NCBI GenBank assembly: GCA_017622995.1
Contig: JAGAQA010000033.1
Span: 31,405-95,404, forward strand
From: Oscillospiraceae bacterium
GTDB lineage: Bacteria; Bacillota; Clostridia; Oscillospirales; Oscillospiraceae
Direction: 5' to 3'
Length of the DNA: 64,000 nucleotides
The position numbers and the translations under genes are program-made. The notes under the pieces were generated by a model that had not been told where the DNA came from, searched no databases, and saw nothing but the letters and a program-made list of their open reading frames with translations. Each line of letters starts with the position of its first letter. Position 1 is the first letter of the stretch. Below, piece after piece: positions 39,188-63,803 of the stretch.

Positions 39188-39291
39188 TGGTGCGAGAGAG
39201 GGGACTCGAGTACACTATGGGGCAAACGCCGTCCAGCCGGCGTTTGGCAACGCCCACCGGGCATTGCATGAAAGTGGGTTCGAGTCCCCAT
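39188..39291 (-). repeat. tRNA-linked hairpin element, tRNA-Leu copy 1 (distal)
   Basis: In tRNA direction: an inverted T-arm copy (GGGGACTCGAACCCAC), hairpin H2 (AATGCCC, loop GGT, GGGCGTT; one G-U pair), hairpin H1 (CAAACGCCG, loop GCTGGA, CGGCGTTTG), then 22 bases identical to the 3' end of tRNA-Leu including CCA (39188-39209). The other bases from 39011 to 39553 outside the two elements and the terminator hold no recognisable gene; a short hairpin (39169-39184 region) follows the duplicated CCA end. Confidence 0.75.
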
Positions 39292-39382
39292 CAAATCAAA
39301 AAAGTACACCCGTACCAACGCTTTTCGGCATCGGACGTATTCAGATTCCATCCACATCCGTACCGGATGCGTCTGATCCCGG

Positions 39383-39512
39383 GGTGCGAGAGAGGGGACT
39401 CGATTGCATTTCCCGCTTTGCGGAAAATCAAGGTTGCTGCCAGTTTTTGAACTGGCAGCCGCAGATGTCCACCGGACATCTGCATTGAAGTGGGTTCGAG
39501 TCCCTTTCGAGC
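39383..39512 (-). repeat. tRNA-linked hairpin element, tRNA-Leu copy 2 (proximal)
   Basis: In tRNA direction, directly after the tRNA-Leu terminator: inverted T-arm copy (GCTCGAAAGGGACTCGAACC), H2 with a perfect 10-bp stem (GCAGATGTCC/GGACATCTGC, loop GGT, 39461-39483), H1 with a 10-bp stem (GCTGCCAGTT/AACTGGCAGC, 39436-39459), a third small hairpin TTTCCGC/GCGGGAAA, then 21 bases identical to the tRNA-Leu 3' end (39383-39403), lacking the last A of CCA. Confidence 0.75.
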
Positions 39513-39515
39513 ATA

Positions 39516-39553
39516 AAAAATCTGAGATACCCGAAGGGGTATCTCAGATTTTT
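39516..39553. terminator. Terminator of tRNA-Leu (symmetrical)
   Basis: A 17-bp perfect stem, AAAAATCTGAGATACCC with loop GAAG; flanking A and T runs allow function in both directions. Confidence 0.85.
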
Positions 39554-39635
39554 GGTGCGAGAGAGGGGACTCGAACCCCCACGGGATTACCACACGCACC
39601 TCAAACGTGCTTGTCTACCATTCCAACACTCTCGC
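39553..39635 (-). tRNA. tRNA-Leu(GAG)
   Basis: An 83-base type II tRNA including encoded CCA: acceptor GCGAGAG/CTCTCGC, anticodon stem CACGT/GCGTG with loop TTGAGGT (anticodon GAG, reading CUC and CUU), long variable arm, and T loop GTTCGAGT. Own promoter upstream, strong terminator downstream. Partial copies of its 3' end lie 170 and 365 bases further on in the transcription direction. Confidence 0.95.
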
Positions 39636-39647
39636 AAGTGCTTGGAT

Positions 39648-39676
39648 ATTGTATCCTATTTTCCCTGTTTTGTCAA
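39648..39676 (-). promoter_or_regulatory. Promoter of tRNA-Leu
   Basis: On the minus strand TTGACA, 17 bases, TACAAT, 12 bases before the tRNA. Confidence 0.85.
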
Positions 39677-39683
39677 TCCTTTT

Positions 39684-40229
39684 TTACGGAATGGTCCGGT
39701 AGGTTTTCCCGGTAACCGCGTAGCCGTGTCCGGGAACCGGCTGCCATTCATATCGGGTTTTCCCCTCCTGGGGAAACAGGCAATCCATAATGGCCGCAAT
39801 CACACCGCCGTGGGTGATGAGCACCGTATCCCGATCCAGGAGCTGCGGAAGCGCCCTTAATACCCGCTGGGTCATTTGTTCGCCGCTTTCCCCTCCCGGC
39901 GGGACATTGCGCATATTGTCCCCCGTGAGCCAAACTCTATAGTCTTCCCTGTCCTTCAGTTCCTCATAGCTGCCCATTTCGAACACGCCAAAGTCAATTT
40001 CCTTGAAGGCAGGCTCCGTCTCGTATTCCACGTCACCAAAGAGCAGTTTCAGGGTTTCTTCCGTCCGTCGCATTCCGCTGATCACAAACCGGACATCCTC
40101 TATACCGTAATGGAGCTCTGACAGCTCCCGTCTGCCAATTTCCGACAGGGGCAGGTCCGTACTGCCGCAGTAGCGGTGCTGCAAATTGGCCTCCGTCTTT
40201 CCGTGCCGGATCAGGTACAAGGTGCTCAT
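39684..40229 (-). CDS. cobC: Histidine phosphatase, CobC-like alpha-ribazole phosphatase
   Basis: Phosphoglycerate-mutase-fold phosphatase of 181 residues with the catalytic LYLIRHGKTEAN at the N-terminus, RRTEETLKLL, FKEIDFGVFEMGSYEEL and the second catalytic His in LITHGGVIAAIM. At the end of a cobalamin operon the likely reaction is removal of the phosphate from alpha-ribazole 5'-phosphate or from adenosylcobalamin 5'-phosphate. The ATG overlaps the preceding stop (ATGA), so it is the last gene of the unit. Confidence 0.85.
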   Translation of the reverse strand: MSTLYLIRHGKTEANLQHRYCGSTDLPLSEIGRRELSELHYGIEDVRFVISGMRRTEETLKLLFGDVEYETEPAFKEIDFGVFEMGSYEELKDREDYRVWLTGDNMRNVPPGGESGEQMTQRVLRALPQLLDRDTVLITHGGVIAAIMDCLFPQEGKTRYEWQPVPGHGYAVTGKTYRTIP

Positions 40230-40594
40230 TTCAGTCTCTGCTCCAATCCGCAGACGATTCGATACACCCGGTCTGCCCGCTTTGCAAGGTACTGGCAAAC
40301 CAGGCCCGTGCTGTGGCGCCACAGCCGCATCTGTGCGTCAATGGGAACGACACCGCAGAACATATCCATGCAGATGATGGTCTTGTCCCTCAAGTCCTGG
40401 GCTTTCAGCTGCTCCAAGGGGTCAATCCCCTTCTGAACGCAGGCAAGGACATAGTCTTCCAGCCGGTCGATGCAGGCTTTTGAAAAATCAATTGTTTCAT
40501 CCGTGCAGGTGAACATCTCCCCCTGGGGAATGTTCAGCGTGTTCCGGGCAAAGTCCCGCTTGCCCTGATAAGCGCCGCCAATAATCAAATTCAT
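40226..40594 (-). CDS. Second, shortened CobU-like P-loop protein
   Basis: A 122-residue protein with a Walker A motif in MNLIIGGAYQGKRDFA and a Walker-B-like CMDMFCGVVP region, resembling a trimmed adenosylcobinamide kinase/guanylyltransferase. It is shorter than CobU (about 180) and lacks the guanylylation-site region seen in the true CobU two genes upstream. It sits between cobS and the CobC-like gene with a 10-base gap and a 4-base overlap. A cobinamide or ribazole kinase role is possible; function is not established. Confidence 0.75.
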   Translation of the reverse strand: MNLIIGGAYQGKRDFARNTLNIPQGEMFTCTDETIDFSKACIDRLEDYVLACVQKGIDPLEQLKAQDLRDKTIICMDMFCGVVPIDAQMRLWRHSTGLVCQYLAKRADRVYRIVCGLEQRLK

Positions 40595-40604
40595 ATTCTT
40601 CTCC

Positions 40605-41345
40605 TTACAGAACCGCCAGCGCGCCCAGAGCCGTCAATTCCCCAAGGGTCAGGGCGTAGCCGGAAATATCACCGTTCATTCCTTCCAGGGAGACATACCC
40701 TTTTCGAAGAGCCAGGCCATAGCCTGCCAGCTCCGCAATCAGCACCAAAGCGCCCCTGGGCCCCACCCAAAGAGAAAAGGCGAAGGAAGCAACCAGGAAT
40801 GCCCCCGGGATAAGAATATCCGCCAGACCTGCCTTCTTCCGGGCGTACTGGCTGGTGGCCATCTTGGGCAGTACAGCCACAGCAACAGAACTGCAGCACC
40901 GGCTGACCACCGGAATGACAATCAGCAGCCGCAGATCCGCGGAGTCCGCCGCGGCGAAGGCAAACACAAACTGGCATAGGATCAGCAGCACACAGCCGAT
41001 AACCGCAAAGGAGCCCACATGGGAATCCTTCAGAATCTCCCTGCGCCGGGCCAGATCCCGGCAGGAGCCCACCGCATCCGTCACATCCATGAACCCATCC
41101 AGATGGAGAAAGCCTGTGGCAAAATAGGGCACGGCGCACAGCACAAGCCCCACGATCAGCTGATGAAGGCCAAAAAAGAGACACAGGAGGCCGCTGATCC
41201 ACCAGATAAAACCGATTTCCAGACCAACCAGAGGCAGGCACCACAGCAGGGCGTATCGGGCATCTTCATCCCAGGTTTTGCAGGGACAGGGAATGGCGCA
41301 GAACATGGACTGACACATCCAAAACGCGTGAAGCAATCGTTTCAT
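40605..41345 (-). CDS. cobS: Adenosylcobinamide-GDP ribazoletransferase (cobalamin synthase)
   Basis: Inner-membrane enzyme of 246 residues joining adenosylcobinamide-GDP and alpha-ribazole (phosphate) in the last step of nucleotide-loop assembly. It has about six hydrophobic segments and the conserved block GFLHLDGFMDVTDAVGSCRDLARRREILKDSHVG, whose Asp residues bind metal (only part is diagnostic: HLDGFMDVTDA). The ATG overlaps the cobU stop by 4 bases. Confidence 0.95.
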   Translation of the reverse strand: MKRLLHAFWMCQSMFCAIPCPCKTWDEDARYALLWCLPLVGLEIGFIWWISGLLCLFFGLHQLIVGLVLCAVPYFATGFLHLDGFMDVTDAVGSCRDLARRREILKDSHVGSFAVIGCVLLILCQFVFAFAAADSADLRLLIVIPVVSRCCSSVAVAVLPKMATSQYARKKAGLADILIPGAFLVASFAFSLWVGPRGALVLIAELAGYGLALRKGYVSLEGMNGDISGYALTLGELTALGALAVL

Positions 41346-41887
41346 TGGGGCAAAACTCCCTTTAGTAAGATCAGATTTCCGGCCGACACTTCAATGACCG
41401 TATCCGCAATTCGGGCAATGGCCCGATCCAGCCTTGCAAGACCTTTGCGGAAGGTTTCCGTCTGCGCATCGTATTTCGCCGCATCGGAATAGATATAGTC
41501 GCTGACGAGAACCAGGTTGGCTACCCTCCCGCAGAGCTCCAGCAGTCCCTTTTCACAGCGTTCCGGTGCTGTGGGATCCAGGGCCCAGGTGGCAGGGTCT
41601 GGATAGAGCTCATTCATCAGCAGCGCCGTTACGCTGTCCAGCAGGAAGCTCCCTTGGGGCTCCGCCTGAAGCAGGCAGGACCCAATGTCCCTGCCGCATT
41701 CGACGGTTTCAAAACCGAGCCCATCCCGGTCGGCAATGTGCCTGCGGATCCGCTCCCGATCCTCCTCATCGCAGGGAATCATGGTGGCGATGTAATAGCG
41801 CTTCCCGCCCCTGGCCAGCTTTACCGCCAGGTCCTGGGCAAAGGAGGACTTACCGTTCTTTGCCCCACCGGTGATAAAGACAATCAT
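41342..41887 (-). CDS. cobU: Adenosylcobinamide kinase / cobinamide-phosphate guanylyltransferase
   Basis: Bifunctional enzyme of 181 residues that phosphorylates adenosylcobinamide and then adds GMP. Seen are the P-loop ITGGAKNGKSSFAQ, RYYIATMIPCDEEDRERIRRH with the guanylylated His region, and LLDSVTALLMNEL and VLVSDYIY. It overlaps cobT and cobS by 4 bases on each side, so the three are translated together. Confidence 0.95.
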   Translation of the reverse strand: MIVFITGGAKNGKSSFAQDLAVKLARGGKRYYIATMIPCDEEDRERIRRHIADRDGLGFETVECGRDIGSCLLQAEPQGSFLLDSVTALLMNELYPDPATWALDPTAPERCEKGLLELCGRVANLVLVSDYIYSDAAKYDAQTETFRKGLARLDRAIARIADTVIEVSAGNLILLKGVLPQ

Positions 41888-42972
41888 TTTGCCCCCTCCA
41901 CGGTGAACTTGTCCCCTTCCCGGATCTCTTTCAGGTAGCCGTCGTCAATACCGGCCTGGTCAAAGGTCGCCATATCATTGAGGATGGCACAGGCGGCAGA
42001 AAGCACCTGGAACGCCAGGGGGCATCCGCTTCCCTCTCCCAGCCGCATACCCAGCAGGAACAAAGGCTGCAGGCCCAGCTCCTCCATGGCCAGCCGATAG
42101 CCGATCTCATAGGAAGCATGGCTGGGAACCAGATAAGAACGCACCAGGGGGCACAGCCGCACGGCGCACAGGGCCGCAACCACGGAGATGAAGCCGTCAA
42201 TCACCACAGGCCGGTGGCTGGCAGCAGCGCCCAGGAAGGCGCCGCACATGGCTGCCAGGTCAAAACCGCCCACCTTTTGCAGCACATCCACCGCGTCCCT
42301 AGGGTCCGGTTTGTTGATCTCAATTGCCCGGGAAATGACTTCCTTCTTCTTCCGGAAGGCGGCATCTGTAATGCCGCCGCCCCGGCCGGTAACCTTCTCA
42401 ACGGGAACGCCCAGAAGCACAGCCAGCACAGCGGAAGAAGTGGTGGTATTGCCGATGCCCATTTCTCCCACACCCAGGGCATCCGCTTTCGTTTCCATGG
42501 CAAGCCCAGCGCCTATCAGTATGGCCTTTTCCGCCTGCTCACGGGTCATGGCAGGGCCCTTAAAGATATTTTGTGTCCCCATGGCGATTTTCCGATTCAA
42601 AACCTTCGGATCGGTGATCACCGCGTTGACCCCCACATCGCAAACCGTAATGCCGGAACCAAAATGCTTGGCAAGGACGGAAGCACCGGTTTTGGCACGG
42701 GTCAGGTTGATGGTCTGCATCAGGGTTACGGACTGGGGCGCACTGGAAACCCCCTCCTCTACCACACCATTGTCCGCCGCAAAAACCAGCAGGTGGGTAT
42801 GGTCCATGGAATTGTGCACCGAGCCGGTAATGCCGGATAGCTGAATGGACAGATCCTCCAGCCGCCCCAGGCTCTCCGGTGGCTTTGCAAGCGACATTTG
42901 GCGCCGTCTTGCCTGTTCCATTGCCTCCTGGTTCAGGGGTTCGATGGATGAAATCAGGGTTTCCAGTGTCAT
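41884..42972 (-). CDS. cobT: Nicotinate-nucleotide:dimethylbenzimidazole phosphoribosyltransferase
   Basis: Makes alpha-ribazole 5'-phosphate, activating the lower ligand of cobalamin. The 362-residue protein has FAADNGVVEEGVSSAPQSVT, GEMGIGNTTTSSAVLAVL, AMCGAFLGAAASHRPVVIDGF and the catalytic Glu in GMRLGEGSGCPLAF. No genes for making dimethylbenzimidazole or the corrin ring are present, so the locus looks like corrinoid salvage plus lower-ligand remodelling. Confidence 0.96.
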   Translation of the reverse strand: MTLETLISSIEPLNQEAMEQARRRQMSLAKPPESLGRLEDLSIQLSGITGSVHNSMDHTHLLVFAADNGVVEEGVSSAPQSVTLMQTINLTRAKTGASVLAKHFGSGITVCDVGVNAVITDPKVLNRKIAMGTQNIFKGPAMTREQAEKAILIGAGLAMETKADALGVGEMGIGNTTTSSAVLAVLLGVPVEKVTGRGGGITDAAFRKKKEVISRAIEINKPDPRDAVDVLQKVGGFDLAAMCGAFLGAAASHRPVVIDGFISVVAALCAVRLCPLVRSYLVPSHASYEIGYRLAMEELGLQPLFLLGMRLGEGSGCPLAFQVLSAACAILNDMATFDQAGIDDGYLKEIREGDKFTVEGAK

Positions 42973-42975
42973 AAT

Positions 42976-43734
42976 TCAGTCCTCCAATATGTTTTCCTTC
43001 AGGAGCCAGCGAACTTCCGGCTCCCCATCCGGAACTTCCAGGGTAAAGGTTGCGTTTTGGCACTGCATGGCGGCCTCTTTCAGAAAGCGTGCCATGGGGA
43101 TACTGCCGCTGTCCAGGGGACCATGGGCATCCCGGGTGCCGTCATTGTTGTGGATGTGAAAATGCCGGATCCAGGGGGCTAAGCATTCCATCCACCGAAA
43201 TACATCGATGGTGGAGCAGACGTTGGCATGGCCCACATCCAGGCAAATGCCAAGCCTGGGGTCTGCGACCTCAGAAACAATCTCTTTTAACCACTGGGGA
43301 TCAGCCTCCATAACGTTTTCCAGACAGAAGCATTTGTCAGGCCCCTGGGTCTGCAAAAACGCCCGCCAAAACAGAACCGACTGCTCCGTAAACCAGCAGG
43401 GAACATATACATTGGGCACAAACCCCGCGTGAAAGATGATCTGATTGGCCCCGTATTGGGCCGCCAGATCGCTTGCCTGCCGGAATCGCTCCATGGCAAG
43501 GTTCCTCGCCTTCGGGTCAATCGCGCAGGGAAAAAGCTCATTAAAGGGGCCGTGAAAGATTCTGCGTTCAATGTCCCCGGTCTGCTCACGGACGATCCGG
43601 TCTGTTTCCCGAAACCCCTGATCCATATTGGCGGCAGTGCAGAATTGCGCGATCTCTACCCCCAGGCCAAATCTCCGGGCACAGCTGCCCGCCAGAGAAT
43701 CCATGGTGGATACAAACAGCTTTTGAGCTTTCAT
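42976..43734 (-). CDS. Xylose-isomerase-like TIM-barrel protein of the cobalamin operon
   Basis: A 252-residue sugar-phosphate isomerase/epimerase-type (AP endonuclease 2 superfamily) protein. Likely metal ligands include the His of IIFHAGFVPN, Glu in CLENVM, the Asp-His of ICLDVGHANVC, and His residues in RHFHIHNNDGTRDAHGPL. It lies between the ECF S gene (4-base overlap) and cobT (3-base gap). No cobalamin step is assigned to this family to my knowledge, so processing of an imported corrinoid or of a lower-ligand ribose is an inference from position. Confidence 0.8.
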   Translation of the reverse strand: MKAQKLFVSTMDSLAGSCARRFGLGVEIAQFCTAANMDQGFRETDRIVREQTGDIERRIFHGPFNELFPCAIDPKARNLAMERFRQASDLAAQYGANQIIFHAGFVPNVYVPCWFTEQSVLFWRAFLQTQGPDKCFCLENVMEADPQWLKEIVSEVADPRLGICLDVGHANVCSTIDVFRWMECLAPWIRHFHIHNNDGTRDAHGPLDSGSIPMARFLKEAAMQCQNATFTLEVPDGEPEVRWLLKENILED

Positions 43735-44432
43735 TGCCGGTCCTCCAGAATACCATATTTCCGCTGGATTCTGCTCAGCTTCTGAAGCAGCGGCTTGGTC
43801 AGCACCAGCAGTGTAAGCCCGCAGCCCAAGCCGTGAATCGTGTTCACCGGAACTCCCTGGCCGTAAATCAGCAGCACGTTGGCAAGGCTCAGCTTTGGAA
43901 GAACCGTAAACACGGTACAGCTATCCAGCATGGGGCCAACCAGCAGCAGGATGGAGAAAAACCCAAACAGTCCCAGCACCCAGGGCTTCCGCCAGGAGGG
44001 GTGACCGTGAAATACCAGCCCAGCCCAGAAGCCGGCAAAGCCATAGGCGAACATCTGCCAGGGTGTCCAGGGTCCCTGTCCAAAGAAGAAGTTGCTGGCA
44101 AAGGCGGCGATGGCCCCGGTGAGGAAGCCCGCCTGGGGGCCGAAGGCGATGCCGGTGATCATAATGATTCCGGTGATTACCTTTAAATAGGGCATCACGG
44201 CAAAGGCCACCCGGGATGCCGCTGCCAGAGCAGCCATAACCCCCACAATCACCAGCTCCCGCGCCTCCGGTCTACGGCGTTCAAAGCTGACAAAAAACGG
44301 CACCATGATTTCCACAATCACCAGGGTGCTGGTCAGGTAATACCACCGGCCCGGAATGGAACGTCCAAGAAAAAGTGTGGCTGGGATCAGGACAAAAAGA
44401 AACAGAATATTGAGCCATGGAGATTGTTTCAT
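43731..44432 (-). CDS. ECF transporter substrate-binding (S) component, probably for cobalamin or precursor
   Basis: Membrane protein of 233 residues with six to seven hydrophobic segments. It contains the conserved VGVMAALAAASRVAF and the GIAFGPQAGFLTGAIAAFASN block of vitamin-type S components. Position inside a unit of ECF A and T genes and cob genes suggests corrinoids (CbrT-like) or alpha-ribazole as cargo. It overlaps both neighbours by 4 bases. Confidence 0.85.
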   Translation of the reverse strand: MKQSPWLNILFLFVLIPATLFLGRSIPGRWYYLTSTLVIVEIMVPFFVSFERRRPEARELVIVGVMAALAAASRVAFAVMPYLKVITGIIMITGIAFGPQAGFLTGAIAAFASNFFFGQGPWTPWQMFAYGFAGFWAGLVFHGHPSWRKPWVLGLFGFFSILLLVGPMLDSCTVFTVLPKLSLANVLLIYGQGVPVNTIHGLGCGLTLLVLTKPLLQKLSRIQRKYGILEDRQ

Positions 44433-46084
44433 CTCTGCCCTCCCCGGTTTTCCCTGAGCAGCTCCACCACATCCCGGGCAGTTACCGCATTCACAAAGAA
44501 AGACCTGCTCATTCGGTTGGCCGCGGTGGTGTAGAAGCTGTTGTCTCCAAAGAATCTGCCGGGTGTACCGGAAGCAATCACGCTCCCGTCAAAGAACATG
44601 GCGGCAAGATCCGCATACTCCGCACAGAACTCAATATCGTGGGAAACCATAATCACCGTAATCCTCTTCCGGGTCAGTTCCTTCAGGGTTGAGGCAAACC
44701 GCTTTTTGAAGCAGCAATCCAGGCCCTTGGTGGGTTCGTCCAGCAGCAGCACTTTGGGATCCGTGAGCAGAACCTTGGCAAGGGCCACCCGCTGCTGCTC
44801 ACCGCCGGACAGATCATAGGGATTCGCGTCCATGAGATGCTCCACTTCACACAGGGCGGCAACCTTCTTTTGCTTTTCAGCATCCCCGTTCATTTCCGCA
44901 AGCTCCCCGGCGACGCTCTGCTTGACAAACAGATTCCGGGGGTCCTGGGGAAGCATGGTCAGACAATGCTCAAAAAGCCTGCCCCGGGCGTAGCTTTTCA
45001 GTTCTTTTCCCAGCACCTCCACCTTTCCCCGATAGGGACGGCAGATTCCGCAGACGGTTCGCAAGGCGGTGGATTTCCCGCCGCCGTTGCTGCCCACAAC
45101 GGCATAGAGGCACCCCTGGGGAACGGAGAGCGTCAGCCCTTTCAAAACATCCGGTGACTGACGGTCATAGCGGAACCAGACATCCGTCAGCTTTACCGCC
45201 TCCCCGCCCTTTGGAAACGGACGCGGCGGGAGCGCCGTAACGGAGGGCCGGTTACCCGCAAAGAACGCATCCAGCCAGCTCCGCCCCTCCCGAACGGTGA
45301 GCGGAACCTGGCCCTCTCCTGCACTTTCGCAGAAGATACGCATGGGCGCCGGAAGCATATCCCGGATGGGATGTCCCTTTTCCATCAGAATCCGGCCCGC
45401 ATCCCGGGGGGAATCGTCAACAATGAGCCGCCCTGCTTCCATCACCAGCACCCGGTCCACTGCGGGAAAAATCTCCTCCACCCGGTGCTCGGTGATCAGG
45501 ACTGTAGTGCCCAGCTCCCGGTTGATTTTCTTCAGCGTATTCAGAAAATCCCCGGCGGCAATGGGGTCCAGCTGGCCGGTGGGCTCGTCCAGAATCAGAA
45601 TTTCCGGCTGCATGGCCATAATGGATGCCAGATTCAGCAGCTGCTTCTGACCGCCGGAAAGCTGGCTGGTCTCCCGGTGATACCAGCTCTGGATGCCGAA
45701 AAAGCTGGCCATCTCCGCAACCCGGGCGCCGATCACATCCCTGGGAACACCCAGATTTTCCAGGCCAAAGGCCAGCTCATGCCACACCTTGTCGGTGACA
45801 ATCTGATCATCCGGGTTCTGCATCACAAAGCCAATTGCCTGGGCCTGTCCGGCAGGCGGCACCTGATCCAATGGCATCCCGCAATACAAAACGGTGCCGC
45901 TGCGGGTGCCCCTGGGTGTGAGTACGGATTTCAGGTGGCGCAGAAGGGTGGTTTTTCCGCATCCGCTGGCACCGCACAGCAGTACAAACTCCCCCTTCTG
46001 AATGGAAAGGGAAACATCCTTCAGGCAGTCGCAGCCGGAATCCGGATAGGAAAAGCTCAGGTTTCGAATTTGAATCTGTTCCAT
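44429..46084 (-). CDS. ECF transporter ATPase, two fused nucleotide-binding domains
   Basis: Energising subunit of an ECF transporter, 551 residues, with both ATPases (EcfA and EcfA') in one chain. The first domain has Walker A GASGCGKTTLL, signature LSGGQKQLLN and Walker B ILILDEPTG; the second has GSNGGGKSTAL, LSGGEQQRVAL and VLLLDEPTK, joined near residues 260-305. The ATG with GGGAGAG upstream lies inside the end of the T-component gene (28-base overlap); an upstream open extension is rejected. Dedicated (group I) arrangement with T and S genes. Confidence 0.93.
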   Translation of the reverse strand: MEQIQIRNLSFSYPDSGCDCLKDVSLSIQKGEFVLLCGASGCGKTTLLRHLKSVLTPRGTRSGTVLYCGMPLDQVPPAGQAQAIGFVMQNPDDQIVTDKVWHELAFGLENLGVPRDVIGARVAEMASFFGIQSWYHRETSQLSGGQKQLLNLASIMAMQPEILILDEPTGQLDPIAAGDFLNTLKKINRELGTTVLITEHRVEEIFPAVDRVLVMEAGRLIVDDSPRDAGRILMEKGHPIRDMLPAPMRIFCESAGEGQVPLTVREGRSWLDAFFAGNRPSVTALPPRPFPKGGEAVKLTDVWFRYDRQSPDVLKGLTLSVPQGCLYAVVGSNGGGKSTALRTVCGICRPYRGKVEVLGKELKSYARGRLFEHCLTMLPQDPRNLFVKQSVAGELAEMNGDAEKQKKVAALCEVEHLMDANPYDLSGGEQQRVALAKVLLTDPKVLLLDEPTKGLDCCFKKRFASTLKELTRKRITVIMVSHDIEFCAEYADLAAMFFDGSVIASGTPGRFFGDNSFYTTAANRMSRSFFVNAVTARDVVELLRENRGGQR

Positions 46085-47530: not shown

Positions 47531-47546
47531 CCTGGTTGCTCTCCCT

Positions 47547-57194: not shown

Positions 57195-57731
57195 ATGGTC
57201 GTCATGACCGCAAAGGTCGATTTCAAGAAAATACTGCTGATAATCGGGATTGCCGCACTGGTTCTGATTGTGGGCATCTACCTGCTGGGCGGCAGCAAGC
57301 AGACCATTGCCCCGGCAGATCAGAAGGTCACCGACAACGATGCAAGGGTGAAATTTTTACAGAGCTTCGGCTGGGAGGTTGTTTCCTCTCCCAAGGAATC
57401 CAGCCAGGTGCTGATTCCGGCAGAATCCAACCAGGTATTTGAACGGTACAACGCGCTGCAAAAATGCCAGGGATATGATCTGAGCAAGTTTGCGGGCAAA
57501 AAGGTTATGCGCTATGTGTATGAAGTGAAAAACTATCCCGGCGCCCAGGAGCCGGTTCTGGCAACGGTACTGATCTACAAAAACAGGGTCATCGGCGGCG
57601 ATGTGACAAACACTGCCCCCGGCGGAAAGATTCAGGGCTTTGCCATGCCGAAGGCACAGCGGACACCCTCCCCTGCGCCTACCACCGAACCGACCCAGAC
57701 GGAAACTACTGCTCCTGAGGCTACGCAGTAA
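57195..57731 (+). CDS. DUF4830 membrane-anchored protein
   Basis: The 178-residue product has one N-terminal membrane segment (about 8-28), an exported DUF4830 domain (FLQSFGWEVVSSPKESSQVL, then NALQKCQGYDLSKFAGKKVM and IGGDV) and a disordered Thr/Pro/Glu tail (APTTEPTQTETTAPEATQ). The family is confined mostly to Clostridia and has no known function. AGGAGG lies nine bases before the chosen ATG. Divergent from the pseudouridine synthase gene, with about 80 bases between the two start codons. Confidence 0.85.
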   Translation: MVVMTAKVDFKKILLIIGIAALVLIVGIYLLGGSKQTIAPADQKVTDNDARVKFLQSFGWEVVSSPKESSQVLIPAESNQVFERYNALQKCQGYDLSKFAGKKVMRYVYEVKNYPGAQEPVLATVLIYKNRVIGGDVTNTAPGGKIQGFAMPKAQRTPSPAPTTEPTQTETTAPEATQ

Positions 57732-57753
57732 ACTATAGCACATTATTTCTTTC

Positions 57754-57782
57754 TTGACAAGAAAGCCCTGCCGTGCTATGCT
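57754..57782 (+). promoter_or_regulatory. Promoter of the ribU riboswitch
   Basis: TTGACA, 17 bases, TATGCT, about 20 bases before the riboswitch. Confidence 0.75.
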
Positions 57783-57801
57783 TATGAAAACTGAATAGAA
57801 T

Positions 57802-57909
57802 ATCTTCAGGGCGGGGCGCAATTCCCCACCGGCGGTAAAGTCCGCGAGCGCGAAAGCGCCGAATCGGTGAAACTCCGATACCGACAGTATAGTCTGGATG
57901 GAAGAAGAT
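57802..57909 (+). ncRNA. FMN riboswitch (RFN element)
   Basis: The classic six-helix FMN aptamer: closing stem ATCTTC/GAAGAT, the conserved AGGGCGGGG and CCCCACCGGCGGTAAAG strings, GAGCGCGAAAGCGC arm, then CGGTGAAACTCCGATACCGAC and AGTCTGGATGG. It lies between a promoter and a terminator hairpin ahead of ribU, so FMN should cause premature termination and lower riboflavin uptake. Confidence 0.97.
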
Positions 57910-57929
57910 ACGCGTATGCGTTTTTTCAT

Positions 57930-57959
57930 GCCCTGAGTGTATGCTCAGGGCAATTTTTT
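57930..57959 (+). terminator. Riboswitch-controlled terminator
   Basis: GCCCTGAG pairs with CTCAGGGC, then TTTTTT, 20 bases after the FMN aptamer and just before the ribU ribosome binding site. The GCCCTGA arm could pair with the TCAGGGC at the start of the aptamer, a plausible switch. Confidence 0.9.
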
Positions 57960-57978
57960 ACCTATGAGGTGACCGAAC

Positions 57979-58698
57979 ATGGAAAAACTACTCACGCAAT
58001 TTCAGGAAAATGCCACATTTGTACTGATTACCGGTCTCTTTATCCTTGCGGTAGCGCTGCTGAGCCATCTGGCCGAACGGAAGCTTCCCCATCTGCGCAG
58101 GGTATCTGCCGCGCGGCGGGTCAGCATCATCGGCATCTGCTCTGCCATTGCCGTGGTGCTGCATGTACTGGATTTCCCCCTGATTTTCCTGGCTCCCGAG
58201 TTCTATAAGCTGGACTTTTCCGAAGTGCCTGTTCTGCTGGGCGGCTTCTTCCTTGGACCAAGCGCTGCCGTTGCCATTGAAGGTGTGAAAATTCTGCTGA
58301 AACTGCTGGTAAAGGGCACCTCCACCGCCTTTGTAGGGGATTTCGCAAACTTCTTTGTGGGCTGCTGCTTCGCCCTGCCCGCTACCGTCTGGTATCACAC
58401 CCACAAGGATAAGCAGGGCGCCGTTGTGGGTTTGGTTCTGGGCACCCTGGTAATGACCGTTCTCGGCACCGCCTTTAACGCCGTTTATCTGCTGCCCAAG
58501 TTCTCCGTGCTCTATGGCATTCCCATGGATGTGCTCATCGGCATGGGCACCGCTGTCCATAAGAGTGTATCGGGTGTATTCTCCTTTGTTGCCCTGTGTG
58601 TGGCCCCGCTGAACCTCGTAAAGGGCTCCGTGGTTTCGGTGCTCACCCTTCTGCTCTACAAGCGGGTAGCAGGTCCCCTGTTCCGCATTCATGAGTAA
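57979..58698 (+). CDS. ribU: Riboflavin ECF transporter S component RibU
   Basis: Substrate-binding membrane subunit of 239 residues for riboflavin uptake. It has about six hydrophobic segments and family blocks SIIGICSAIAVVLHVLDFPL, LDFSEVPVLLGGFFLGP and the G-rich AFVGDFANFFVG. Placement behind an FMN riboswitch confirms the assignment. It needs the shared EcfA/A'/T module, which is not in this window; the nearby cobalamin ECF genes form a separate dedicated set. ATGAGGTGA serves as ribosome binding site. Confidence 0.96.
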   Translation: MEKLLTQFQENATFVLITGLFILAVALLSHLAERKLPHLRRVSAARRVSIIGICSAIAVVLHVLDFPLIFLAPEFYKLDFSEVPVLLGGFFLGPSAAVAIEGVKILLKLLVKGTSTAFVGDFANFFVGCCFALPATVWYHTHKDKQGAVVGLVLGTLVMTVLGTAFNAVYLLPKFSVLYGIPMDVLIGMGTAVHKSVSGVFSFVALCVAPLNLVKGSVVSVLTLLLYKRVAGPLFRIHE

Positions 58699-58706
58699 GC
58701 CCCCTT

Positions 58707-58733
58707 CCGCCGCTTTCCAGCGGCGGATTTTTT
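58707..58733 (+). terminator. Intrinsic terminator of ribU
   Basis: CCGCCGCT / AGCGGCGG with loop TTCC, then TTTTTT. Confidence 0.9.
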
Positions 58734-58791
58734 CTTTATTTCCCGCGCAATATGCTGTATAATATAGAAAACAAAGCAAAGGAGACAAAAC

Positions 58792-59799
58792 ATGGAATAC
58801 AGAACCCTTGGTAAAACCGGTCTGAAGGTATCCCGCATGGGCTGCGGCGGCATTCCCATTCAGCGCATTGACGCCGATGGCACGAAAATGCTGATGCACC
58901 GTCTTCTGGAAAAAGGCGTCAACTACATTGACACCGCCAGAGGTTACACCGTTTCCGAAGAATACCTGGGCTACGGGCTCACGGGCATCCGGGACAAGTT
59001 TGTCATTGCCACAAAGGGCAGAGGCCTTACAAAAGACGACATGGCAAAGGATGTGGCCCAGAGCCTGCGCAATCTGCGGACGGACTACATCGACATCTAC
59101 CAGTTCCATGACCCCTCCATGGAAAGCCTGGATCGGATTCTGGCTCCCGGGGGCGCGCTGGAAGCTCTTATGGAGGCAAAGGAAGCCGGCACCGTTCGCC
59201 ATATCGGCATCACTACCCACTCCACGGAAGTATTCCGCCGGGCACTGGACCTTCCCTGGGTGGAAACCATCATGTTCCCCTACAATATTGTGGAATCCCA
59301 GGGCAGCGAGCTGATCCGGGCCTGCGGAGAAAAGAACATCGGCTTCATCTGCATGAAACCCCTGGCAGGCGGCGCCATCGAGGATGCAGCCCTTGCCATG
59401 CGCTACATCACCCGGAATCCGGATGTCAGCGTCATCATTCCCGGCATGGCAAGCACCGCGGAGCTGGAACAGAATCTGGCGGCGGTGGAGGATCCCGCTC
59501 CTCTCAGCGATCAGGAGCTGGAGAAAATAGAAGCCATCCGGGCCGGACTGGGCACCCAGTTCTGCCGCCGCTGCGGTTACTGCGCCCCCTGCACCGTGGG
59601 CATCGCCATTCCCCAGGTGTTTACCCTGGAGGGGTATCTCTCCCGCTACGGACTTGCCCAGTGGGCCCATGGCCGGTATGATACCATGCCCGCGAAGGCC
59701 TCAGACTGTATCGGCTGCGGCCAGTGTGAAAGCCGCTGTCCCTACCATCTGCCCATTCGCCAGATGCTGAAAAAGGCCGCCGGTTCCTTCGGCGTATAA
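58792..59799 (+). CDS. Aldo/keto reductase with C-terminal 4Fe-4S motifs
   Basis: NAD(P)H-dependent oxidoreductase of 335 residues. The (beta/alpha)8 part shows MEYRTLGKTGLKVSRMGCGG, the Asp/Tyr-type catalytic region in NYIDTARGYTVSEE, and KPLAGGAIED. After about residue 260 come Cys clusters CRRCGYCAPCTVGI and CIGCGQCESRCPYHLPI, typical of ferredoxin-type aldo/keto reductases. The C-terminal Cys pattern suggests electron exchange with ferredoxin. A TATAAT box lies 30 bases upstream; its -35 box is poor. Substrate unknown. Confidence 0.92.
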   Translation: MEYRTLGKTGLKVSRMGCGGIPIQRIDADGTKMLMHRLLEKGVNYIDTARGYTVSEEYLGYGLTGIRDKFVIATKGRGLTKDDMAKDVAQSLRNLRTDYIDIYQFHDPSMESLDRILAPGGALEALMEAKEAGTVRHIGITTHSTEVFRRALDLPWVETIMFPYNIVESQGSELIRACGEKNIGFICMKPLAGGAIEDAALAMRYITRNPDVSVIIPGMASTAELEQNLAAVEDPAPLSDQELEKIEAIRAGLGTQFCRRCGYCAPCTVGIAIPQVFTLEGYLSRYGLAQWAHGRYDTMPAKASDCIGCGQCESRCPYHLPIRQMLKKAAGSFGV

Positions 59800-59802
59800 C
59801 AA

Positions 59803-59838
59803 ATCCCCCTTCCGAAAACCCGGAAGGGGGATCTTTCT
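59803..59838. terminator. Bidirectional terminator between the reductase gene and serA
   Basis: ATCCCCCTTCCG pairs with CGGAAGGGGGAT and T-rich sequence follows; both converging genes can use it. Confidence 0.75.
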
Positions 59839-59844
59839 GATTGT

Positions 59845-61008
59845 TCAGCGGATGACCCGAACGCGGAGAACGCCGTCGATCTTTTTGAGGCCCTCCACCA
59901 GATTCCGGGAGGGCTGATGGTCCAGATCCAGCATGGTGTAGGCGTACTCACCACGGCTCTTGTTCATCAGGCCCGCGATGTTCACGTTCTCCCCTGCCAA
60001 AGCGGTGGTAAACCGACCCAGGGAATTGGGAATATTCCGGTGCAGGATGGTAATCCGACCCTGGCTGGCGCAAACACCCATATCGCAGTTGGGGAAGTTG
60101 ACGGAGTTCACAATGTTACCGTTTTCCAGGTAGTTCATCACCTGGCTGACAGCCATCTTGGCGCAGTTATCCTCGGACTCCTCGGTGGATGCGCCCAGAT
60201 GGGGAATGGCAATGCAGCCGGGCATGGATGCCGTCTTCTCATTGGGGAAATCGGTGATATAGCGCTTTACCTTGCCGGATGCCAGCGCTTCCGCCATGGC
60301 ATCGTCATCCACCAGCAGATCCCGGGCAAAGTTCAGGATGATCACGCCGTCCTTCATCTTTGCGATGGTTTCCGCGTTGATCATATGTCTGGTGTCCTCC
60401 ACCAGCGGCGTATGCAGGGAAATGATGTCGCAGGTAGAGAATACCTCCTCCCGGCTGTTGACCCGATGGATCTGGCTGTCCAGATGCCAGGCGGCATCGA
60501 TGGAAATAAAGGGATCACAGCCATAAACCTGCATTCCCAGCTTCCGGGCCGCATTGGCAAAGGGGCCGCCTACGGCGCCCAGGCCCACAACACCCAGCTT
60601 CTGGCCCAGGATTTCATGGCCTGCAAACTGAGACTTGCCCTTTTCCACTTTCTTGGCAACATCCGTTTCCTGTGCGATGGACTTGACCCAGTTGATGCCG
60701 CCGATCACATCCCGGCAGCCCAGCAGCAGACCGCACAGGGTCAGCTCCATCACGCTGCGGGCATTGGCACCGGGGGTATTGAACACCACGATTCCCTGCT
60801 CCGCGCAGCGGTCCAGGGGAATATTGTTCACCCCGGCACCGGCTCTGGCCACTGCCAGAAGGTTCTCGGAAAAGGTCATATCGTGCATGGCGGCGCTGCG
60901 GACCAGAAGCGCGTCAGCATCCTCAATGGTCTCGGACTGCCTGTATTCTTTCGTCCAAAGGGCGGTGCCCTTTGGGGAAATCTGATTGAGATAATTTACC
61001 TGAAACAT
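59845..61008 (-). CDS. serA: D-3-phosphoglycerate dehydrogenase
   Basis: First step of serine synthesis: oxidises 3-phosphoglycerate to 3-phosphohydroxypyruvate. The 387-residue protein has the NAD-binding GVVGLGAVGGPFANAA, catalytic regions ARAGAGVNNIPLDRCAEQGI and IAIPHLGASTEESEDN, and a C-terminal ACT domain (about 310-387, ENVNIAGLMNKSRGEYAYT), which suggests serine feedback. In the motif around NFARDLLVDDDAM a Gly usual in the family is replaced by Asp. The ATG with AGAGGG upstream is chosen over an earlier one. Last gene of the unit. Confidence 0.95.
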   Translation of the reverse strand: MFQVNYLNQISPKGTALWTKEYRQSETIEDADALLVRSAAMHDMTFSENLLAVARAGAGVNNIPLDRCAEQGIVVFNTPGANARSVMELTLCGLLLGCRDVIGGINWVKSIAQETDVAKKVEKGKSQFAGHEILGQKLGVVGLGAVGGPFANAARKLGMQVYGCDPFISIDAAWHLDSQIHRVNSREEVFSTCDIISLHTPLVEDTRHMINAETIAKMKDGVIILNFARDLLVDDDAMAEALASGKVKRYITDFPNEKTASMPGCIAIPHLGASTEESEDNCAKMAVSQVMNYLENGNIVNSVNFPNCDMGVCASQGRITILHRNIPNSLGRFTTALAGENVNIAGLMNKSRGEYAYTMLDLDHQPSRNLVEGLKKIDGVLRVRVIR

Positions 61009-61038
61009 TTGGTTACCCTCTCTTCTCTGCCCCAACGG

Positions 61039-62118
61039 TCAGATTTTCTTTTCAAATTCTTCCATAAACCGGGTCAGCTTCTCCACACCTTCCATGGGCA
61101 TGGCGTTGTAAATGCTGGCACGCATGCCGCCTACACTGCGGTGGCCCTTCAGATTCACAAAGCCTGCGGCGGCTGCCTCCGTTACAAACCGGGCGTCCAG
61201 GTCAGGGTCGCCGGTAACAAAGGTCACATTCATCAGGGAGCGATCAGCCTTCACAACCTGATTGTGGAAAAGCCTGCTGGAATCCAGGTAATCATAGAGG
61301 ATCCCGGCCTTTTTCACGTTGTAATCCCTCATGGCTTCCAGGCCGCCGTTGCGCAGCAGCCACTTGAACACCTTGCCGCAGATGTAAATACCATAGGTAG
61401 GCGGGGTGTTGTACATGGAGCCCGCGTCCGCATGGGTCTTGTATTTCAGCATGGTGGGCGTACCGGGCAGCACATCCTCCCGAATGAGATCTTCCCGGAT
61501 AATGGCAATGACCACACCGGCAGGGCCTACGTTCTTCTGCGCGCCGCCGTAGATCATGCCGTAGTCCGTAACCTTTACCGGCTCAGACAGGAAGCAGGAG
61601 GATACGTCGGCTACCAGAGGCTTGCCCTTTGTATTGGGCAGGGTATGGAACTTGGTGCCGTAGATGGTATTGTTCTCGCAGATATAGACGTAGTCGCTCT
61701 GTTCACTGATGGGCAGATCGGAACAATCCGGGATATAGGTAAAGTTCTTGTCCGCGGAGGAGGCAAGCGCATTGGCCTGACCAAAGAGCTGGGCCTCCTT
61801 CCAGGCTTTCTTGGAGAACTGGCCGGTGATGATGTAGTCCGCAACCCTGTTGCGCATCAGATTCATGGGCACCATGGCAAACTGCTGGCTGGCGCCGCCC
61901 TGCAGAAAGAGCACCTTGTAATTTTCCGGGATGCCCATCAAAGCGCGCAGATCCTCCTCTGCCTCGTCAATAATCTTCTGATAGGGCTTGGAACGATGGC
62001 TCATTTCCATAACAGACATGCCGGTTCCCTGGTAATCCAGCATCTCCGCGGCAGCTTCCTTTAAAACCTCTTCCGGCAGGACAGCAGGACCTGCGGAGAA
62101 ATTATAGACTCTCGACAT
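61039..62118 (-). CDS. serC: Phosphoserine aminotransferase
   Basis: PLP enzyme turning 3-phosphohydroxypyruvate and glutamate into phosphoserine. The 359-residue protein begins MSRVYNFSAGPAVLPEEVL, has the PLP lysine in MIYGGAQKNVGPAGVVIAI (near residue 197) and HRSVGGMRASIYNAMP at the C-terminus. GAGGAG lies eight bases before the ATG. It follows the ApgM-like gene by 14 bases and precedes serA by 30. Confidence 0.96.
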   Translation of the reverse strand: MSRVYNFSAGPAVLPEEVLKEAAAEMLDYQGTGMSVMEMSHRSKPYQKIIDEAEEDLRALMGIPENYKVLFLQGGASQQFAMVPMNLMRNRVADYIITGQFSKKAWKEAQLFGQANALASSADKNFTYIPDCSDLPISEQSDYVYICENNTIYGTKFHTLPNTKGKPLVADVSSCFLSEPVKVTDYGMIYGGAQKNVGPAGVVIAIIREDLIREDVLPGTPTMLKYKTHADAGSMYNTPPTYGIYICGKVFKWLLRNGGLEAMRDYNVKKAGILYDYLDSSRLFHNQVVKADRSLMNVTFVTGDPDLDARFVTEAAAAGFVNLKGHRSVGGMRASIYNAMPMEGVEKLTRFMEEFEKKI

Positions 62119-62132
62119 ATGTGAAACTCCTC

Positions 62133-63329
62133 TCATTTCAACAATTCATCAATCAGCTTGTAGCCATCGGGCTGGTATACACCGGCAGCCCGGGCTTCCG
62201 CCTCGGAAAAGGACGCGATCTTCTTTTCCTGCCGGGTGCTGTCGTACAGCAAATAGGGTACGGGATCGCCGGTATGGGTCCGCACCCGGATGGGTGTGGG
62301 GTGATCCGGGAGAATCAGCATCCGGTAATCCTCTCCGGACGCGTCCATGGCTTCCTTCACCACAGCAATCAGCCGGTGGTCCAGATCGGAAATGGATTGG
62401 ATCTTCTCCTTTACGAGACCCTGGTGGCCCATTTCATCCGGGGCCTCCACATGGACATAGACGAAGTCGCATCCGTCTTCCAGCAGGGCCTTTACCGCCG
62501 CCTGGGCCTTGCCCTCATAATTGGTATCAATGGAGCCGGTGGCACCGGGAACCTGATATACCTTCATACCCGCGCCGACAGCGATGCCTTTCAGCAGGTC
62601 TACGGCAGAGATCATGGCGCCCTTCAGGCCGGTCTTTTCTTCAAAGTTCTGAAGACTGGGCTTGGTGCCCGCCCCCCAGAACCACAGAGAATTGGCCTTG
62701 TTCTTTCCCGCCTTGGCCCGCTCCACATTCAGCGGATGGCTATTCAGCAGAGGGAAGCTTTCCTCCATGAGCTTTTTGAGCATGGGCTCCCCGGGCAGCC
62801 AGGGACCGATCTTTGTTCCCAAATGGTCATGGGGCGGTTCCAGAGGAACCACCTTGCCCTGCTTCCACACCATAATATGCCGGTAGCTGGTGCCGGTGTA
62901 AAACCGAATCCGTTCAGACTGGAAGTTCTGCCGGATGGTGTCCATCAGAACATCCGCATCCCGGGTGGAAATCTCACCGGAGCTGTGATCCAGAATTGTT
63001 TTTTCCGGATATGGTTCCTCTTCCGTCAAGGTGACAATATTGGCACGGAAGATCACATCGTCCTCCTCCATGTCCACACCCACGCTCAGCGCTTCCAGGG
63101 GAGATCGTCCTGAGTAAGATCGTGCGGGATCGTAGCCCAATACAGAAAGATTGGCCACATCGGATCCCGGTGCCATACCGCTGGGCACATTCTGAACCAT
63201 GCCCATGCGTCCTGCGCAGGCCATGGCATCCATGGTGGGGGTATCGGCACATTCCATAGGCGTCTTTCCGCCCAAAAGGTCCATGGGCTCATCCGCCATA
63301 CCGTCACCCAGAATGACAATATACTTCAA
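62133..63329 (-). CDS. ApgM-type cofactor-independent phosphoglycerate mutase-like enzyme
   Basis: Alkaline-phosphatase-superfamily metalloenzyme of 398 residues: MKYIVILGDGMADEP with the first metal-binding Asp, NVPSGMAPGSDVANLSVLGYDP with the catalytic Ser, VHVEAPDEMGHQG and LPDHPTPIRVRTHTGDPVP at the second metal site. Close relatives are annotated both as phosphoglycerate mutase and as an alternative homoserine kinase (ThrB2-like). Being first in a serC-serA unit it could supply 3-phosphoglycerate or act on phosphoserine; no serB is seen. Starts at TTG after GGAGAG. Confidence 0.88.
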   Translation of the reverse strand: MKYIVILGDGMADEPMDLLGGKTPMECADTPTMDAMACAGRMGMVQNVPSGMAPGSDVANLSVLGYDPARSYSGRSPLEALSVGVDMEEDDVIFRANIVTLTEEEPYPEKTILDHSSGEISTRDADVLMDTIRQNFQSERIRFYTGTSYRHIMVWKQGKVVPLEPPHDHLGTKIGPWLPGEPMLKKLMEESFPLLNSHPLNVERAKAGKNKANSLWFWGAGTKPSLQNFEEKTGLKGAMISAVDLLKGIAVGAGMKVYQVPGATGSIDTNYEGKAQAAVKALLEDGCDFVYVHVEAPDEMGHQGLVKEKIQSISDLDHRLIAVVKEAMDASGEDYRMLILPDHPTPIRVRTHTGDPVPYLLYDSTRQEKKIASFSEAEARAAGVYQPDGYKLIDELLK

Positions 63330-63382
63330 GATTTCTCTCTCCTCTCCGGCCTTGGCCGCAGCCTCGGTCGATGGTTTTCCCT

Positions 63383-63411
63383 ATCATACCACTAGACAAT
63401 TGAGAATGCAA
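63383..63411 (-). promoter_or_regulatory. Promoter of the serine unit
   Basis: On the minus strand TTGCAT, 17 bases, TATGAT, about 54 bases before the TTG start. Between this promoter and the hairpin element (63412-63527) I see nothing. Confidence 0.6.
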
Positions 63412-63527
63412 TATGAAATTGTGCCGGAAAGGACTTGCAATCCGCCCCCGGGTATGTGCATATTGCAGGTACAAATGTCGCCTGAAGCAGGAAATCGGCA
63501 GAATTGCAAAGAGAATCATTCATTTGC

Positions 63528-63691
63528 GCGAAAAAAAGCCCAACCGTTTTGGCTGGACTTTTTATGGAGCGGGTGACGAGGCTTCGCCGCCTCGTGCCCC
63601 TGGCACTCGTATGGTTGCATTGCCGTCCAGCCGGCAATGCCCGACAGTCCACCGGACTGTCGGATTGAATTGTTCGAGCCTCTTTCACCCG
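63528..63691 (-). repeat. tRNA-linked hairpin element, tRNA-Gly copy
   Basis: In tRNA direction, right after the tRNA-Gly terminator: inverted, slightly diverged copy of the tRNA-Gly end (CGGGTGAAAGAGGCTCGAAC, 63671-63691), H2 with a perfect 10-bp stem (CCGACAGTCC/GGACTGTCGG, loop GGT, 63641-63663), H1 (GCATTGCCG, loop GCTGGA, CGGCAATGC, 63617-63640), a small hairpin GTGCC/GGCAC, an ACGAGGC/GCCTCGT stem-loop and a direct copy of the tRNA end with CCA, then a second copy of the terminator. The 33 bases 63551-63583 are identical to 63714-63746. Confidence 0.8.
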
Positions 63692-63692
63692 A

Positions 63693-63727
63693 AAAAGAAA
63701 AGCCCAGCCGTTTGGCTGGACTTTTTA
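63693..63727. terminator. Terminator of tRNA-Gly
   Basis: AGTCCAGCC / GGCTGGGCT stem on the minus strand followed by TTTTC; a nearly identical copy lies at 63530-63563. Confidence 0.8.
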
Positions 63728-63803
63728 TGGAGCGGGTGACGAGGCTCGAACTCGCTACCTCCACCTTGGCAAGGTGGCGCTCTACCGGATGAGCTACACC
63801 CGC
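63728..63803 (-). tRNA. tRNA-Gly(GCC)
   Basis: A 76-base tRNA with encoded CCA: acceptor GCGGGTG/CACCCGC, anticodon stem CCACC/GGTGG with loop TTGCCAA (anticodon GCC), T arm GCGAG/CTCGT with loop TTCGAGC. Own promoter upstream. Confidence 0.96.

Follow-up and report, generated by a model that had tools for sequence, protein, structure and literature searches.

Behind two tRNA genes in a 64,000-nucleotide stretch of an Oscillospiraceae bacterium genome (GenBank assembly GCA_017622995.1, contig JAGAQA010000033.1; hereafter the window, whose positions give all coordinates below) lie three non-coding elements made of hairpins and copies of the tRNA 3′ end. What kind of entity carries the sequence of its tRNA neighbor at both of its ends? 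The answer reached here is that these elements are very probably mobile DNA rather than an RNA gene; with less certainty, we lean towards small, non-autonomous mobile DNA elements that occupy tRNA and transfer-messenger RNA (tmRNA) genes in the manner of integron cassettes.

As the sequence and the tRNA calls made with ARAGORN agree, two of the elements follow tRNA-Leu(gag) and one follows tRNA-Gly(gcc), all on the minus strand. Read in the direction of the tRNA, each comprises a hairpin in the position of a terminator, then the T arm of the tRNA in inverted copy, followed after a short linker by two hairpins termed H2 and H1 and by a direct copy of the tRNA 3′ end termed D2. A first, sequence-only reading of the window had placed three elements at these positions, with the order inverted copy, H2, H1 and direct copy, and proved accurate for all three; it was equally right about the H2 loop, which is GGT on differing stems in all three elements, and about the H1 loop, which is GCTGGA in two copies (39223–39246 and 63617–63640), with another loop at 39436–39459. 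The terminator-position hairpin precedes the inverted copy and is part of the repeating unit. The distal Leu unit is preceded by the previous unit and not by the CCA end of the tRNA, and extra hairpins occur between H1 and D2 in two of the three elements, i.e., the tRNA-proximal Leu copy and the Gly copy. The features are listed below as read from the sequence, unless another basis is named; R1 denotes a covariance model trained on seven copies from the window's own genome.

39553..39635, minus strand: tRNA-Leu(gag), anchor of both Leu elements (ARAGORN; Rfam tRNA)
39517..39552, minus strand: terminator hairpin (T) of the proximal Leu unit, immediately after CCA (an arrangement that recurs in other units)
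39493..39506, minus strand: inverted tRNA-Leu T-arm copy of the proximal Leu unit (GGGACTCGAACC)
39461..39483, minus strand: hairpin H2 of the proximal Leu unit, 10 bp, loop GGT
39436..39459, minus strand: hairpin H1 of the proximal Leu unit, with an atypical loop of 4 nt
39409..39427, minus strand: third hairpin, H0, of the proximal Leu unit
39383..39403, minus strand: D2 of the proximal Leu unit, a direct tRNA-Leu 3′-end copy from the T loop
39337..39379, minus strand: inter-unit hairpin, similar to the long one of a second, "type II" module described below (GACGCATCC..GGATGTGGATG; by eye)
39298..39316, minus strand: short hairpin in terminator position, distal Leu unit (by eye)
39276..39290, minus strand: inverted T-arm copy of the distal Leu unit (GGGGACTCGAACCC; also R1)
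39247..39267, minus strand: hairpin H2 of the distal Leu unit, 9 bp, loop GGT (also R1)
39223..39246, minus strand: hairpin H1 of the distal Leu unit, loop GCTGGA (also R1)
39188..39209, minus strand: D2 of the distal Leu unit, a direct tRNA-Leu 3′-end copy
63728..63803, minus strand: tRNA-Gly(gcc), anchor of the Gly element (ARAGORN)
63693..63727, minus strand: terminator hairpin (T) of the Gly unit
63672..63691, minus strand: inverted tRNA-Gly 3′-end copy of the Gly unit (CGGGTGAAAGAGGCTCGAAC)
63641..63663, minus strand: hairpin H2 of the Gly unit, loop GGT (also R1)
63617..63640, minus strand: hairpin H1 of the Gly unit, loop GCTGGA (also R1)
63566..63586, minus strand: D2 of the Gly unit, a direct tRNA-Gly 3′-end copy, one base longer than the tRNA

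In general, a unit runs from the tRNA 3′ end (T loop to CCA) through optional cargo, a terminator hairpin, the inverted end copy, H2, H1, an optional H0 and, usually, AAT to the next end copy, and spans ~140–190 bp when free of cargo. Comparison of the window with Rfam 15 at gathering scores identified nothing beyond the Gly tRNA and an FMN riboswitch; when the Leu units were judged by E-value, the tRNA and a single sub-threshold microRNA were the only matches—in line with the first reading, which had recognized no known family. The riboswitch (RF00050), a separate feature, is located at 57798–57913.

How far does this family extend, and how firmly is it tied to tRNA genes? The sequence-only reading had suggested searching the genome and its relatives with a covariance model; further copies were found in this way, and they covary. 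Copies detected earlier in the window's own genome by DNA and pattern searches stand behind tRNA-Leu(tag), two tRNA-Val genes and tRNA-Gln, often in tandem. R1 scored the three window copies against their own genome far beyond chance, with E-values of 1.5e-24 (a training sequence), 3.1e-12 and 1.7e-10, and returned 26 hits in total—25 in the sense orientation and one opposite-strand echo. Sixteen of the 25 belong to arrays headed by an ARAGORN tRNA, and the other nine divide into copies of Leu(caa) type (three, identical) and Tyr type (two) at contig ends, copies of Gly type (three) and one Val-type fragment. Across 60 genomes, R1 matched the window's own genome and 28 of 36 congeners (Faecousia-like Oscillospiraceae), and none of 23 genomes from other families of the order. 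Among 300 family genomes at least 90% complete, 24 had matches, spread over 7 of 72 genera, with 10 of the 14 genomes listed for the window's own genus. Moreover, a DNA pattern scan of named genomes yielded at least 80 stretches, 79 of those listed lying in records of Oscillospiraceae, Clostridia, Clostridiales, Eubacteriales, Bacillota or Candidatus Faecousia; a stretch from Opitutae lies in coding-like sequence and was taken as chance.

Pooling two R1 runs (141 matches; 150 of 153 aligned) gave 259 sense hits after the removal of opposite-strand echoes, and 216 unique copies once same-place copies were removed as well. A smaller set of 202 unique copies, 115 of them behind tRNAs, underlies the results on right edges, AAT, fold energies, loops and terminator types given below, as well as the example of cores 90–97% alike and the survey of copies not behind a tRNA; both sets lead to the same conclusions. 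The sample is non-random, in that loci were picked for matching the model and near relatives were counted separately. Labels such as L020 and L109 denote loci, and G000, G034 and G333 denote genomes. As many as 123 of the 216 copies begin downstream of a tRNA or tmRNA gene, 122 of them 39–58 nt from its 3′ end and one 16 nt from it, and these tRNA-headed copies cover 25 anticodons and 14 amino acids, plus tmRNA (four copies). The remainder consists of 44 tandem copies, 6 that are cassette-spaced, 12 at contig starts and 31 classed as "other". The claim of a structured element tied to tRNA 3′ ends is thereby upheld in a far larger sample, and the idea that hits flank tRNA genes stands for most copies examined, which follow a tRNA, a tmRNA or another copy. 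Many copies with no tRNA ahead of them stand directly after the remnant of a tRNA 3′ end or after an integrated element carrying a serine recombinase, which indicates that tRNA and unit became separated. The family is larger than first claimed, its units being inserted, stacked and sometimes gene-carrying.

Two further observations concern the surroundings of these loci. Whole tRNA genes—Leu(cag), Pro(ggg) or Val(gac)—are duplicated in proximity beside units in L064, L156, L077, L221 and L229. A 34.4-kb contig (C41 of G000, holding L109 and L110) starts and ends with an identical Leu(caa) unit, is possibly a unit-bounded island, and carries cofactor-biosynthesis and oxidoreductase-like genes with no integrase seen by eye; it was initially read as a giant cassette, but in view of this gene content and of the unordered contigs no evidence was drawn from it.

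The arms of the units follow the tRNA beside which they stand. In 102 of the 123 tRNA-headed units, D2 differs from its own tRNA at no more than one of 14 positions, against 2 of 123 when a random other tRNA is used; for the inverted copy, 68 of the tRNA-headed units reach 12/14 matching positions with their own tRNA and 9 with another one. The first matching base of D2 falls at T54+0 in 6 units, at +1 in 76 and at +2 in 41, which defines a sharp left edge within the T loop. Right edges scatter more widely, with their mode at the tRNA end. The bases ahead of C56 in the unit are usually AAT, which places an exact cut between T54 and C56. Even an unusual target is followed: the T loop of tRNA-Ser(cga) has TTCAAATCC in place of TTCGA, and its units carry TCAAATCC and GGATTTGAAC.

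Unlike the arms, the cores can be 90–97% alike behind different tRNAs, e.g., Gly(ccc), Leu(cag) and tmRNA. We compared 101 pairs of units, drawn from 58 loci, that stand behind different tRNAs and whose cores are alike to 86% or more, anchoring the inverted arm without fitting and positioning D2 by its better match to either tRNA. At positions that discriminate between the two tRNAs, D2 carried the local base in 1061 cases, that of the partner in 29 and neither in 26, and the inverted arm did so in 466, 61 and 79 cases, respectively; the corresponding counts in the smaller set were 816, 29 and 21 for D2 and 363, 45 and 58 for the inverted arm. Of 40 core pairs at least 90% alike, 23 share an isotype and 17 do not, and the nearest-neighbor core comes from another isotype for 74 of 120 cores. 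Grouping of the cores by genome or by isotype is mixed, and these sequence pairs suggest that units both descend at a single tRNA and move from one tRNA to another.

Could these units be satellites that exploit ordinary double-strand, site-specific integration? They would then depend on tRNA integrases of phages or integrative and conjugative elements (ICEs) acting in trans; D2 would be the usual attachment core, and the hairpins would serve as binding sites or packaging signals. The segment from T loop to CCA is indeed a typical tRNA attachment core, the tRNA remnants at several element loci suggest that phages or ICEs integrated there, tyrosine integrases are common in these genomes and serine recombinases adjoin some elements. 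An integrase, however, usually serves one tRNA family, whereas here a single element family stands behind all 25 anticodons and tmRNA, and integration of this kind leaves both the tRNA-specific inverted arm and the covarying stems unexplained; we regard it as unlikely.

What, then, do the hairpins stand for, RNA or DNA? In an alignment of 150 rows, fitted to the structure of the model and including some opposite-strand matches, 95.2% of the cells pair, and both sides have changed at 26 of 27 pairs, with 803 such cells against 182 in shuffles (none of 500 as high). Independently of this alignment, 58 of the 60 cores tested (out of 200) reached a fold z below −2 with DNA energies, with a mean of −5.0, and both strands of the cores fold about equally well. 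The H2 loop is mostly NGT and the H1 loop mostly GCTNGA, and these loops recur across the genus. The terminator hairpin belongs to one sequence type in just 41 of 114 cases; what is conserved is therefore its position and not its sequence. Among standard pairs, G-U accounts for 22 of 2081 in H2 (1.1%), 29 of 1711 in H1 (1.7%) and 46 of 1389 in the outer stem (3.3%), as compared with 38 of 664 (5.7%) in the tRNA acceptor stems of the same loci. RNA helices usually evolve via G-U, while DNA hairpins and repaired palindromes do not, and the rarity of such pairs thus favors DNA hairpins over RNA—pointing, as far as pairing patterns can tell, to hairpins that act as DNA structure. The sequence-only reading had taken covariation as a sign of selection on RNA or single-stranded DNA structure: the covariation is there and the few G-U pairs indicate DNA, but covariation alone does not prove selection, as strand-switch or concerted palindrome repair could leave the same clean pattern.

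These data also bear on a functional structured RNA behind tRNA genes, such as a regulator or decoy of tRNA processing. Its structure and loops would be strongly conserved, as they are here, but the terminator hairpin stands between tRNA and element, G-U pairs are rare and Rfam holds no match; in addition, the presence and number of copies vary at the same tRNA gene of relatives, and distal copies tend to fit worse. We consider such an RNA very improbable.

The variation among relatives can be followed at tRNA-Ala(cgc), where four genomes have common flanks (L162, L220, L178 and L215). Both L162 and L220 hold one intact and one decayed unit, and L178 has gained one additional whole unit of 173 bp in a flank 90.5% identical to that of L162 over 2338 bp. 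In L215, 796 bp of additional sequence separate CCA from the terminator of the first unit, inserted precisely at that junction; they hold a hairpin resembling a terminator and an open reading frame (ORF) of 149 aa that has no Pfam match. Occupied and empty sites coexist at tRNA-Ser(cga): the gene is found in 18 of 61 genus genomes, with one to three units behind 9 of them and none behind the other 9, in a comparison that was judged by eye, takes orthology from the tRNA only and includes two identical sites among the nine occupied ones. No orthologues of the gene adjoining the window elements were found outside their own genome at an E-value of 1e-60.

Some units carry genes, located between the tRNA or a unit and the next unit. 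L076 encodes a ParE toxin family protein and a Phd/YefM-like antitoxin, the latter under the curated cut-off; L079 has an HTH_3 gene, and L078 has three ORFs across two cassettes, none matching Pfam. Behind tmRNA in L141, in the opposite orientation, lie genes for a penicillinase-repressor and an M56-peptidase family protein and a third ORF, while in L077 an HTH_3 gene sits between two whole tRNA-Pro genes, with one unit at each. Arrays also show polarity: the proximal D2 fits the tRNA better than the distal one in 20 of 30 arrays, worse in 3 and equally in 7 (two-sided sign test, ~0.0005), a bias that entry of new units at the tRNA would produce.

A second structured module ("type II"), longer than the first, was observed in L020 (minus strand, ~2582–2599), L154, L222, L231 and L251. 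It has outer arms that follow the tRNA (GGATTC../..GAATCC or GGACTC../..GAGTCC), a hairpin with a GGT or AGT loop, the motif TAGCCCGTGGGAGARTCC and a long hairpin; in L020, where it has no Rfam match at gathering scores, it lies between tRNA-Gln and a normal unit, with a tRNA-Gln end after each. Such stacking of different modules at one tRNA points to repeated insertion.

How might a unit reach a tRNA gene? The closest precedent is the integron. Like attC cassettes and clusters of attC sites lacking integron integrases (CALINs), the elements form stacked units beside a fixed anchor, and some of these units combine cargo with a structured site in the manner of a cassette; they share with attC cassettes covarying stems of little sequence conservation and, where cargo is present, its small size, such as a toxin–antitoxin pair or ORFs lacking an assigned function. 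Unlike integrons, they occur without an integron integrase in the 38 genus genomes searched, and their anchor is the T loop of a tRNA or tmRNA rather than a single attI; unlike attC, they have two side-by-side hairpins instead of one stem, their arms copy the local tRNA and most units are empty. The R boxes of attC read GTTRRRY/RYYYAAC with the crossover at G^TT, whereas the element boundary lies at about GTT^C (T54–C56) and the T-loop GTTCRA does not fit GTTRRR.

On the basis of cassette anatomy and an attC-like fold, we propose recombination of the folded unit with the T loop by an enzyme that would act in trans, and a folded-strand, integron-like event of this kind is the route to which we are modestly inclined. 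The inverted arm and D2 of a single strand would pair and rebuild the double-stranded core of the T arm beside two hairpins, in a form resembling attC, and the unit would enter the T loop at about GTT^C, supplying a new tRNA 3′ end and terminator. As the unit brings both of its own, the tRNA would survive every insertion; new units would join at the tRNA and old ones would decay distally. The inverted arm may be copied from the local tRNA end, perhaps through fold-back synthesis on the terminator hairpin—a candidate process because the tRNA end, terminator and inverted end can form one long palindrome in L270.

This possible palindrome, also seen in Tyr units, and the near-perfect tandem units of L084 are what growth in place would produce: the inverted copy would come from template switching at terminator hairpins, and the arrays from slippage or from unequal crossing-over among D2 copies, all without a dedicated enzyme. 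Against it, similar cores stand behind different tRNAs in different genomes, the loops recur genus-wide and the cargo of L215 sits exactly between CCA and terminator; we consider growth in place very improbable.

A dedicated enzyme was sought among several protein families. Tyrosine recombinases (PF00589) were compared between seven element-bearing genomes, i.e., the window's own and six others, and four element-free ones, with 10 loci examined in the own genome and 48 in the others; the unexamined matches are mostly in the element-free G333. Among the families compared, no non-Xer tyrosine integrase was common to all seven element-bearing genomes—a further point against ordinary integration. 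A cluster of 347–390 aa present in four of the seven and in none of the four was rejected, its members lying, by eye, among genes resembling those of an ordinary integrative element or beside a housekeeping gene, and no tyrosine recombinase recurred among the genes beside elements. As side observations, many genomes of the genus (G000 and relatives) have two Xer-like genes separated by a few kb, and the PF00589 search found neither in G034, an element-free genome that is 98% complete. Reverse transcriptase (PF00078), the enzyme that a tRNA-primed retroelement would require, does not track the elements either, occurring in one of the seven element-bearing genomes and one of the four element-free ones.

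The Y1 transposase (PF01797) likewise fails to track them (two of seven and one of four, respectively; IS91-type Y2 enzymes were not searched), and this result bears on a transposition-type hairpin element of the repetitive extragenic palindrome (REP) and REP-associated tyrosine transposase (RAYT), IS200/IS605 or IS91-like kind, which would prefer GTTC in T loops and duplicate the tRNA end as its target. GTTC is common to T loops, D2 can be read as a ~20-bp target duplication, and REPs are hairpins with conserved loops and variable stems. However, besides the inconsistent Y1 transposase, the boundary in the T loop is fixed and some units carry cargo; we hold transposition of this type to be quite unlikely.

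Large serine recombinase genes adjoin some elements, a class not searched genome-wide; Pfam supports this assignment for L086 and L112 and detects the corresponding zinc-ribbon domain in L083. The gene in L086 (1274–2893) ends at the 3′ end of tRNA-Val(gac) (..GTGTCCACCA), and the sequence at that end is also found ahead of the elements in L238 and L176, as if an element with a serine recombinase had a tRNA end as its target. As drivers of the units these recombinases were set aside, since at all three loci they end at a tRNA-Val 3′ end and look like separate insertions between tRNA and unit.

Several points weigh against the cassette-like interpretation preferred here. No recombinase was identified for the elements: the integron integrase TIGR02249 was above cut-off in none of the 38 genus genomes, and, of the tyrosine recombinase families compared, the only ones present in all seven element-bearing genomes are the two Xer-like ones, also found in three of the four element-free genomes. 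The enzyme may be gone from unit-rich genomes, as it is from CALINs, or its part may be played by Xer proteins or visiting elements; a large serine recombinase could conceivably take part in the system. Plain cassette insertion leaves the rewriting of the inverted arm unexplained, many close cores share an isotype, and the units could have been multiplied by homologous recombination. Cargo is rare and most units are empty, with 6 of 216 copies cassette-spaced behind another unit. Finally, the polarity argument would be weakened if the last D2, being next to unique DNA, decays for other reasons, as it may, and the window's own Leu array runs against the trend, its distal unit being slightly closer to the tRNA than its proximal unit.

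Other known systems share parts of this picture. Like tRNA-targeting islands, ICEs, satellites and tycheposons, the elements target the 3′ part of the tRNA, restore its end and terminator, and close on their far side with a directly repeated tRNA 3′ end (102/123); unlike them, they are ~140–190 bp long when free of cargo, with no integrase inside, occur as one family at tRNAs for 14 amino acids plus tmRNA, and have a tRNA-specific inverted arm and conserved hairpins. REPs and bacterial interspersed mosaic elements (BIMEs) with RAYTs are likewise short, dispersed hairpins with variable stems, but the elements lie mostly behind tRNA genes and have no consistent Y1 transposase. With Rfam RNAs they share a conserved secondary structure, and they differ in having DNA-like pairing and no match.

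No description of such elements was found in the titles and abstract beginnings of the open-access literature, a scope outside which most subscription papers fall. We raise, tentatively and at less than even confidence, the possibility of a recombination system of a new class. Its general attachment site would be the T loop that tRNA and tmRNA genes share, the arms of its folded-strand sites would be rewritten to the target, and its tRNA-anchored cassette arrays would do without an integron integrase. Gene capture through folded single strands is best known from integrons, which depend on one enzyme family and one attachment site, and to our knowledge they are rare in gut Clostridia. The elements raise the questions of which enzyme reads the shared T loop and how the arms get copied. 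If the proposal is true, these bacteria would hold a second, independent solution to folded-strand capture, in which tRNA genes for at least 14 amino acids serve as landing sites, the arms are fitted to each target, and toxin–antitoxin or regulator genes are sometimes brought along.

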